Translations under genes and position numbers: made by a program | The notes under the pieces: generated by a model | The model's database searches: none | Seen by the model: the letters and a program-made list of their open reading frames with translations, nothing else | Told to the model about the DNA's origin: nothing | Shown: one piece after another, positions 36,834 through 38,682 of the stretch | Numbering within the stretch: position 1 is the stretch's first letter | Layout of the letters: the number at the start of each line of letters is the position of its first letter | Source of the DNA: Planctomicrobium piriforme | GTDB lineage: Bacteria > Planctomycetota > Planctomycetia > Planctomycetales > Planctomycetaceae | Length of the DNA stretch: 64,000 nucleotides | Assembly: GCA_945860955.1 (NCBI GenBank) | Contig: CAMATH010000026.1 | Location: forward strand, 1-64,000 | Direction of reading: 5' to 3'

Positions 36834-36862
36834 TTGACTCTCATGAAACCCGAATGTAGAAA
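36834..36862 (+). promoter_or_regulatory. Possible sigma-70-like promoter for the aroF leader
   Basis: TTGACT at 36834-36839 is followed 17 bp later by TAGAAA at 36857-36862. The -35 box is good and the -10 box is weak. It would start a transcript near 36869 that contains the short leader ORF. Confidence 0.35.
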
Positions 36863-36983
36863 GGTAGAGCGTACGGAGCCGTTGGTCAGACGTGGCCAGG
36901 CTGGATGTAAAACCGTGAGTAGGCGTCACAGTGGAAACGCCGAAACCGGGTGGTCCCCCGTTCGGAAGGAGGTGGTTTAGTAT

Positions 36984-37016
36984 ATGTGTTGTACTTCCCA
37001 GAGGTGTGCTGCCTGA
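36984..37016 (+). CDS. Very short Cys-rich leader ORF (MCCTSQRCAA)
   Basis: ATG at 36984 opens a ten-codon ORF, MCCTSQRCAA, ending in TGA. A near-perfect Shine-Dalgarno (AAGGAGG at 36966-36972) lies 11 bases upstream in a region with no other gene. Three of ten residues are cysteine, two of them adjacent, which is what a translation-sensing attenuator for cysteine or sulphur supply would look like. Its last three codons form one arm of a 9-bp inverted repeat. Against the idea, the next gene is DAHP synthase, for which an aromatic-residue leader would be expected. Chance cannot be excluded for so short an ORF. Confidence 0.4.
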   Translation: MCCTSQRCAA

Positions 37017-37081
37017 TAAGCAGTTGACGGGCTGCGAAGTGTTGTCTCGTCGATCTCTGTCGGAGCAACCGCTCAGGCAGC
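37008..37081 (+). promoter_or_regulatory. 9-bp inverted repeat joining the leader ORF end to downstream RNA
   Basis: GCTGCCTGA at 37008-37016, the end of the leader ORF, is matched exactly by TCAGGCAGC at 37073-37081. A ribosome paused on or released from the leader would open or allow this pairing. Shorter competing pairings (CTGC/GCAG) occur inside. Confidence 0.45.
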
Positions 37082-37332
37082 GTGAAAACCTTTCCTGGAT
37101 TGTTTGATGTTGATCTGATTGATGTCAGGTCGATTGATTTCAGCCGGGAAATCGTTCAGCGGTCTTGTCGCTGGATCGAGTATCTACGGAACCCAGCAAC
37201 AAGTTCTTCCTCCTTTTGTCGACCGTCTTGTGAACAACCGATTCGATAGCGTGAACCCAGCCTTTCCGGCCGCAACGTGCGGTCAGTGGTGGCGGTTTAC
37301 CTATTTTTATCGGAGCTCCCAGGGCTCGACGC

Positions 37333-37392
37333 GATGTGCGGTTTGCTGAACACCGCCACACAAACGTGACTCGTGACAGGCCCTGAGATCTC
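37333..37392 (+). repeat. 60-bp repeat flanking aroF, upstream copy
   Basis: This segment matches 38623-38682 at 49 of 60 positions with no gaps, including the blocks GAACACCGCCA, GACTCGTGAC and GAGATCTC. Its right end overlaps the left arm and loop of the terminator at 37376-37419. Confidence 0.75.
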
Positions 37393-37419
37393 CGGATTTC
37401 AGGGCCTGTTTTTGTTTTT
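37376..37419 (+). terminator. Strong intrinsic terminator upstream of aroF
   Basis: ACAGGCCCTGA at 37376-37386 pairs perfectly with TCAGGGCCTGT at 37399-37409 and runs into TTTTTGTTTTT (37409-37419). It lies 90 bp before the DAHP synthase start on the same strand and has no ordinary gene in front of it, so it ends either a small RNA or an attenuated leader transcript. Confidence 0.88.
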
Positions 37420-37508: not shown

Positions 37509-38522
37509 ATGATCGTCGTTCTCAAGCCGCTCTGTTCCCAAACCACCATCGAACGACTTACCCGGCGGATCGAAGAACTGGGAATGAAGCCCCATATCAT
37601 CATCGGGGTCGAGCGGACAGTCATAGCCGCCACCGGTCCGGAACGCGAAGGAATGCAGGCTGAGCTGGAAGCCGACCAGGAAGTCGAGCGGGTCATGCCG
37701 ATTCTGGCCCCCTATAAAATCGCCAGTCGTGAAACCCGCAGAGATCCCACGGTGATCACCGTGGGCAGCCTGACGATCGGCGGTGGAACAATTGGCGTGA
37801 TCGCCGGGCCGTGTTCCGTGGAAGGGGAGGAGTCGATCATCGAAATCGCGAAGATCGTCAAGGCGGCGGGAGCGACTGCGTTGCGCGGAGGCGCATTCAA
37901 ACCCCGCACCAGCCCTTACGCCTTCCAGGGAATGAAGGAAAAGGGACTGGAATTCCTGGCAGCCGCCCGCGAAGTGACCGGGCTTGCGATTGTCACCGAA
38001 GTCATGACCCCCCATCATGTCGAACTCGTCGCGAAATACTCCGACGTGTTGCAGATCGGCGCTCGCAACATGCAGAACTATCACCTGCTGCAGGCGGTTG
38101 GCGAAACCCGGAAGCCGGTGCTTTTGAAGCGGGGACCGTCAGCGACCATCGAAGAATTCCTGCTGGCCGCCGAGTACATTCTCGACCAGGGGAACCAGCA
38201 GGTGATTCTGTGCGAACGGGGAATTCGCACGTTCGAGACGCACACCCGGTTCACACTGCCACTCGCCACAGTCCCGTACCTCCGTGAGAAGACCCACCTG
38301 CCGATCGTCGTCGATCCCAGTCACGGGACGGGCGTCGCATCACTGGTCCCGTCCATGTCGGCCGCGTCGGTCGCCTGCGGAGCCGACGGCTTGATTCTTG
38401 AGGTCCACCAAAATCCGGCGAAAGCGGTGAGCGACGGAGCACAGACACTGAACCCGGCGCAGTTCGAAGCGACCATTGCGACGTGCCGCAAGGTGGCTGG
38501 GGCGTTGGGAAAAACGATGTAG
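37509..38522 (+). CDS. aroF: DAHP synthase (3-deoxy-7-phosphoheptulonate synthase)
   Basis: The 337-residue enzyme condenses phosphoenolpyruvate and erythrose 4-phosphate, the first step of aromatic amino-acid synthesis. Residues 1-75 form a ferredoxin-like (ACT-like) regulatory domain, as in Thermotoga and Bacillus type I-beta enzymes. The barrel carries the metal and substrate motifs [43 protein letters not shown] and VVDPSHGTG, and LILEVHQNP near the end. Length is typical of the Thermotoga type. It stands alone, between the upstream terminator and the second copy of a 60-bp repeat. The N-terminal domain suggests feedback inhibition by Tyr or Phe. Confidence 0.95.
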
Positions 38523-38622
38523 GATCGACTCCCGCCACTGTCGAGGGTCAAGGTCGCGTCGACGATGGTTTGTCGCTTTCGACTTTCCAACCCAGAATCG
38601 GATTCCATATCTCCACCGTCGT

Positions 38623-38682
38623 GATGTCCGGTCGGCGGAACACCGCCAGTCAATTGGGACTCGTGACCGGCCCGGAGATCTC
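38623..38682 (+). repeat. 60-bp repeat flanking aroF, downstream copy
   Basis: This is the partner of 37333-37392 (49 of 60 identical). It lies 100 bp after the aroF stop. No terminator hairpin follows this copy. The remaining sequence up to the GTPase start at 38817 shows nothing else. Confidence 0.75.

Follow-up and report, generated by a model that had tools for sequence, protein, structure and literature searches.

A mini-ORF RNA with an extended Shine-Dalgarno sequence and a predicted aromatic attenuator upstream of the DAHP synthase gene of Planctomicrobium piriforme

Anatomy of the locus

The DAHP synthase gene (aroF) of the window, that is, of the whole stretch of 64,000 nucleotides that was analysed, is preceded on the forward strand by a promoter-like sequence, a mini-ORF embedded in a conserved RNA, a second ORF rich in aromatic codons and an intrinsic terminator. 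The features and the evidence by which they were placed are the following:

36834..36862, + strand: sigma70-like promoter TTGACT-N17-TAGAAA (TTGACT 36834-36839, TAGAAA 36857-36862), common to the RNA and the aroF leader; read directly
36870..37200, + strand: conserved RNA body, from similarity to G003, G001, G011, G103 and G132; both ends inferred, the 5' one from the promoter and the 3' one from the conservation in these relatives
36884..36897, + strand: 5' hairpin GGUC-AGACGU-GGCC with the conserved loop AGACGU; by eye
36964..36981, + strand: extended Shine-Dalgarno (SD) sequence complementary to the 16S rRNA 3' tail (SD GGAAGGAGGTGGTT at 36964-36977); duplex and run scan
36984..37016, + strand: mini-ORF MCCTSQRCAA followed by a stop (ATG TGT TGT ACT TCC CAG AGG TGT GCT GCC TGA); in-frame closure in relatives
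37008..37016, + strand: left arm of the inverted repeat, GCTGCCTGA, equal to the end of the mini-ORF; read directly
37020..37035, + strand: hairpin GCAG-UUGACGGG-CUGC directly 3' of the stop codon; covariation
37073..37081, + strand: right arm of the inverted repeat, TCAGGCAGC; read directly
~37251..37349, + strand: aromatic leader ORF VNPAFPAATCGQWWRFTYFYRSSQGSTRCAVC followed by a stop, with the run WWRFTYFY; aromatic-rich frame at the same place in relatives
37313..37327, + strand: antiterminator segment GAGCTCCCAGGGCTC, complement of the terminator 5' arm; duplex of -15.3 kcal/mol
37375..37418, + strand: intrinsic terminator of the aroF attenuator, at which the RNA ends as well in this genus; 16-pair stem (37375-37410) and T-run
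37509..38522, + strand: DAHP synthase gene, 337 aa; ORF, named as in the first-pass annotation

The promoter-like sequence noted in the first-pass annotation is present, with 17 nt between its two boxes, and a TTGAC-16/17-TA box was seen by eye at the equivalent place in ten relatives; a stricter consensus scan did not list it. A 561-nt stretch of the locus folds more stably than its dinucleotide shuffles (z = -4.1). At the Rfam gathering threshold there were zero matches in the window, the region itself giving only noise near E = 1. A tRNA/tmRNA search found none, and a search for DNA similarity to plasmids found nothing similar. A third conserved block, UUCAGYGGUC...GUAUCUA, lies at 37154-37187 of the window and recurs in the lineages in which the RNA is fused to the attenuator (G011, G103, G132, G003 and G001).

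The same annotation had described the region as free of other genes, which does not hold, as the aromatic-rich leader ORF lies directly 5' of the terminator. The features that it noted are real, but they are split between two different elements, an anatomy in which we have high confidence.

The mini-ORF RNA and its conservation

The strong SD sequence noted earlier pairs with the 16S rRNA over 15-18 nt and is the best such match of the window. The 16S genes of the same genome end in GGTTGGATCACCTCCTTTCT, and positions 36964-36981 pair with that end without interruption. With the own-genome sequence GGUUGGAUCACCUCCUU, the 16S part up to CCTCCTT, the duplex has 15 bp and -20.6 kcal/mol. Counted with G-U pairs, the unbroken run of 18 pairs is the longest on both strands of the 64 kb (runner-up 13), a count that takes in bases possibly beyond the mature 16S end. 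Among 66 distinct members of the family, AAGGAGGTG is invariant. Some planctomycete copies (L029 and L054) carry CCACCTCC downstream.

The mini-ORF is as first described, and its frame is kept. The post-stop hairpin could be recognised in 68 distinct members, and in 66 of them the frame of the start codon reaches a stop in the 25 nt that precede the hairpin loop, compared with 14 and 6 for the other two frames. Among sixty further loci, which are mostly outside the training set of the covariance model R2 (at least one genome, Thalassoglobus, L105, is inside it) and include non-independent close relatives within a genus, all 50 scorable loci close in frame (other frames, 7 and 5). In the 66 members of the first set, start codons (GTG 39, ATG 18, TTG 9) and stop codons (TGA 29, TAA 21, TAG 16) vary and the ORFs are 10-15 codons long; overall the range is 10-16 codons. 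This pattern of closure indicates that the mini-ORF is under frame constraint. At the family level the peptide resembles VxxDCSSQRGGxA, and between families it drifts strongly (MDSFKRRWLPT, LKFRELRGSPT, MCSNPRRWLS). The reading frame of the most conserved stretch, GAGGTGG, differs by lineage (RGG or RRW), which suggests that there is constraint at the RNA level too. Cysteine is frequent in the mini-ORFs, yet missing from many members. A literature search found no paper describing these mini-ORFs, and a search with the peptide string gave unrelated matches only, among the matches listed.

The post-stop hairpin (loop YSGRCGGG) covaries: all five of its pairs changed on both sides in 66 Planctomycetota sequences, with a covariation score of 0.469 versus 0.236 for shuffled sequences and at most 0.236 when slid. 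The arms of the 5' hairpin vary yet still pair in G132, G001 and G011, as judged by eye. The inverted repeat had been described as a 9-bp repeat with the end of the ORF as its left arm; it is indeed perfect, and it is retained in close relatives with one compensatory pair, C-G to U-A. The mini-ORF and the repeat, on whose conservation in close relatives the first-pass annotation had made its reading depend, are thus both kept. Phylum-wide, the long-range helix of the ORF end has a mean z of -1.47 against shuffled sequences, with 15 of 66 sequences below -2, which is modest support. We therefore relied on the post-stop hairpin and did not take the long-range helix for a signature of the phylum. 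The loop GACGGGC is complementary to the 1400 region of the 16S rRNA, but this match was rejected as not significant, the chance of a heptamer match in the 16S rRNA being ~9% by our own estimate.

A pattern made from the first relatives found the RNA in five further-sampled genera, and with an initial covariance model it was detected throughout the phylum. When 84,980 named genomes were scanned by pattern, 90 stretches were retrieved, more than 50 of which were Planctomycetota loci (Gemmataceae, Pirellulales, Phycisphaerae and Planctomycetales). Trained on 66 distinct Planctomycetota sequences, the covariance model R2 matches the source genome in a single copy at 36960-37048 (E = 1.5e-11); R2 E-values are rough, and training members match by construction. 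Within the family, R2 matched 136 out of 170 genomes and 53 out of 58 genera, in single copy save for one genome with two, and across the Planctomycetota sample it matched 113 out of 294 genomes. No R2 match was found among the genomes listed for genus g73 (G146-G163), though sister genera match, suggesting loss or strong divergence.

A terminator-like hairpin follows the SD sequence by 133-268 nt in 37 of 50 family loci, compared with 2% of mononucleotide shuffles. In five genomes (G033, G114, G115, G116 and G112) the RNA is separate from aroF and has its own terminator-like hairpin. No conserved neighbour or downstream target gene was found, the largest shared neighbour cluster comprising 4 of 53 loci. 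The RNA is located between the promoter and the aroF attenuator only in six genomes from three genera (G000, G001 and G003; G011 and G103; G132); the locus of G011 and that of G132 are truncated at the end of a contig, and there the link to aroF is deduced from the terminator. The RNA of the source genus lacks a separate terminator. The mini-ORF RNA forms its own family and is normally free-standing. By eye, one free-standing copy lies just 5' of a tRNA nucleotidyltransferase-like gene (L016, in G112) and another 3' of a trpA-like gene (L017, in G033).

The aroF attenuator and the relation between the two elements

The terminator claimed in the first-pass annotation was recovered with its 16 pairs. 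Relatives keep it 5' of the DAHP synthase gene whether or not they have the mini-ORF RNA, and orthologues of the enzyme, 69-90% identical, are encoded directly 3' of the equivalent terminator in relatives with that side on the contig. The start codon of the aromatic leader ORF is uncertain, GTG at 37230 also being possible. Aromatic runs are found in G003 (WWYGYWY), G011 (WYEFYFWY), G103 (FWSGFYFWY), G132 (YWFEFFSWFSYW), G031 (WYRFTFWY) and G013 (FYFWF), with weaker ones in G001 (WWW) and G018. In seven of nine genomes the end-product codons are clustered, at 6-9 F/W/Y per 12 residues. An antiterminator of -15 to -26 kcal/mol (-26 in G013) is predicted immediately 3' of the aromatic run in eight of nine genomes, and on these predicted energies antiterminator and terminator are mutually exclusive. 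An aromatic attenuator layout explains the strong conservation of the terminator, which, on the sequence comparisons, belongs to an ordinary aromatic-amino-acid attenuator of aroF with a predicted amino-acid response. A partial, degenerate copy of the 3' part of this attenuator (37327-37392) is located at 38617-38682, past the DAHP synthase stop and ahead of the following gene (80% over 66 nt); by eye it has the terminator 5' arm and no matching 3' arm.

The initial reading of the locus was one attenuator, with the Cys mini-ORF as a cysteine sensor that governs termination ahead of aroF. The order of promoter, SD sequence, ORF, repeat and terminator agrees with this model, and no other terminator intervenes in the source genome. 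A predicted translation-sensing attenuator does lie ahead of the DAHP synthase gene, but the ORF that senses would be the WWRFTYFY ORF and not the Cys mini-ORF, which is separated from the terminator by ~360 nt and a complete aromatic attenuator. Moreover, the RNA stands by itself in other genomes, and in some relatives (G031, G013 and G018) the aroF attenuator has no Cys mini-ORF region ahead of it; G031 has the mini-ORF RNA on contig C8 and aroF on C12. Cysteine sensing also finds no support in the many members whose ORFs have no Cys. The mycobacterial poly-Cys leaders are Cys-responsive uORF attenuators in which a run of Cys codons lies ahead of a conserved regulated operon. Assignment to this class was rejected, as there is no conserved downstream gene and Cys is not invariant. 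A cysteine-sensing attenuator of aroF is unlikely, and the single-attenuator model as it was framed is highly improbable. We would give somewhat more room, though still little, to a tandem leader in the fused lineages (g1, g9 and g71), where occupancy of the mini-ORF would also modulate read-through into aroF in cis. The fusion is present in six genomes from three genera with a promoter in common and no separate terminator, and an RNA without its own terminator may have gained a cis role at aroF in this genus. However, the analysis showed no complementarity linking the RNA body to the attenuator, which is complete by itself.

We consider the locus best explained, with a probability of roughly 0.6, by two elements under one promoter: the structured mini-ORF RNA followed by an aromatic attenuator. 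The mini-ORF RNA is most likely a translated, ribosome-engaging regulatory RNA. As a tentative mechanism, which we hold at less than even odds, it may work as a ribosome-occupancy switch acting in trans. A 30S subunit would be recruited through the SD sequence complementary to the whole 16S 3' tail, the 10-codon mini-ORF would then be translated, and the ribosome on it would open the helix formed by the ORF end. Since the last codons and the stop of the mini-ORF form a helix arm beside the covarying hairpin, ribosome occupancy and the folded RNA would exclude each other. The signal acting in trans might be the RNA, the micropeptide or the bound ribosome, and the RNA would report or buffer translation-initiation capacity. 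The aroF attenuator would separately follow Trp/Phe/Tyr supply: a ribosome stalled on Trp, Phe or Tyr codons would favour the antiterminator and thereby allow synthesis of the enzyme. In this genus the upstream RNA would end at the aroF terminator, so that expression of aroF would depend on read-through of transcripts started at the RNA promoter.

Alternatively, the 10-16-aa peptide could be the functional product, with RNA structure only tuning its expression. The ORF is in frame in nearly all members, the family pattern VxxDCSSQRGGxA recurs, and short conserved peptides are also encoded at Ms_IGR-5 (RTREVA) and CC2171 (SHCH) loci, two sRNA families compared below. Nevertheless, the strong drift of the peptide between families and the varying frame of GAGGTGG point to constraint on the RNA, and a micropeptide gene is a possible but less probable reading. 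An untranslated sponge, whose sole action would be to titrate 30S subunits by pairing with the 16S tail and whose ORF would be a by-product, would agree with the near-complete complementarity to that tail; yet start and stop stay in frame through indels, with differing start and stop codons, and a sponge needs no stop codon, which makes it very unlikely. On the favoured reading, the retention of a single-copy RNA gene in most of the family, together with the conserved frame of its ultrashort ORF and its match to almost the whole 16S tail, suggests an unnamed general function in translation.

Comparison with known systems

In Corynebacterium glutamicum, the DAHP synthase gene aroF lies behind the leader peptide aroR with the aromatic codons Phe-Tyr-Phe (PMC11802643, PMC4046766). 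The second element described here has the same layout, but its leader carries Trp, Phe and Tyr runs and its terminator and antiterminator differ in sequence; the likeness is one of layout. Planctomycetota would join the phyla with a predicted ribosome-mediated attenuator of DAHP synthase. A precedent for action in trans is rnTrpL/peTrpL of Sinorhizobium meliloti, where the leader peptide of the attenuator has been shown to act in trans (PMC7298713). It has no sequence relation to the RNA at this locus, and there the attenuator's own leader peptide acts, whereas here a separate RNA precedes the attenuator.

Two Rfam families resemble the mini-ORF RNA. Ms_IGR-5 (RF02471), an sRNA of Actinobacteria marked as RNA-seq-validated in Streptomyces lividans (PMC8079986), has an extended SD sequence at the same place, a start ~15-17 nt after the GGAG core and a 12-codon ORF that ends just past GAGGTG(G/A)CTG, with which a downstream CAG(T/C)CACC can pair. 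The layout of extended SD sequence, mini-ORF, GAGGTGGCTG element and downstream partner can also be read in the planctomycete RNA, but as the SD sequence accounts for much of the match, homology across phyla is only possible; the peptide differs, being of the RTREVA type. The pattern made from planctomycete members retrieved four loci in Actinobacteria that are Ms_IGR-5 at gathering score, and 40 out of 60 actinomycete genomes exceeded the cut-off for this family with one copy per matching genome. Its gathering threshold (45 bits) was not reached by the planctomycete RNA, with no match in the window and 19.9 bits for the planctomycete locus L037.

CC2171 (RF01867), an sRNA of Caulobacter, likewise has GAAAGGAGGTGATCC, a start 12 nt further on, a structured 3' part and a terminator. 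Its short ORF often contains Cys ((M/V)SHC...), is ~22-35 codons long and is followed by a different downstream structure. Sub-threshold matches of the CC2171 covariance model fall exactly on planctomycete RNA loci. None of 149 Planctomycetota genomes exceeded its gathering threshold (75 bits), the best scoring about 35-37 bits. At some CC2171 loci (L187-L191), the alphaproteobacterial mini-ORF includes CTGGATC...GCCTC, a mimic of the anti-SD sequence by which the extended SD sequence could be masked.

We read 14 Ms_IGR-5 and 14 CC2171 loci and found an extended SD sequence with a mini-ORF in all of them, the frame being set by hand in L174 and L185, where the script had picked another start first. 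The CC2171 ORFs mostly begin with (M/V)S, often SHC, and those of Ms_IGR-5 are RTREVA-type 12-mers. Given the shared layout, these two 'non-coding' families are probably translated. Extended-SD mini-ORF loci outside Rfam families at gathering were also seen in Betaproteobacteria (L104 and L124) and in Thermoleophilia and other Actinobacteria (L099, L122, L126, L129 and L151), and related genomes encode similar short peptides at them.

R2 is biased on other phyla because the loci there were chosen by the SD pattern, and as the SD sequence dominates the cross-phylum matches, these RNAs may be one ancient family or convergent. It is conceivable, though doubtful, that the RNAs of Planctomycetota, Actinobacteria and Alphaproteobacteria are variants of one ancient, mostly single-copy ribosome-engaging regulatory RNA that senses or buffers translation initiation, its core being a 16S 3' tail complement with a translated ultrashort ORF behind it. 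If so, a widespread ribosome-engaging regulator would have been filed in Rfam as unrelated 'non-coding' sRNAs. The hosts of Ms_IGR-5 and CC2171 (Streptomyces, mycobacteria and Caulobacter) are genetically better tractable, so that function is directly testable there.
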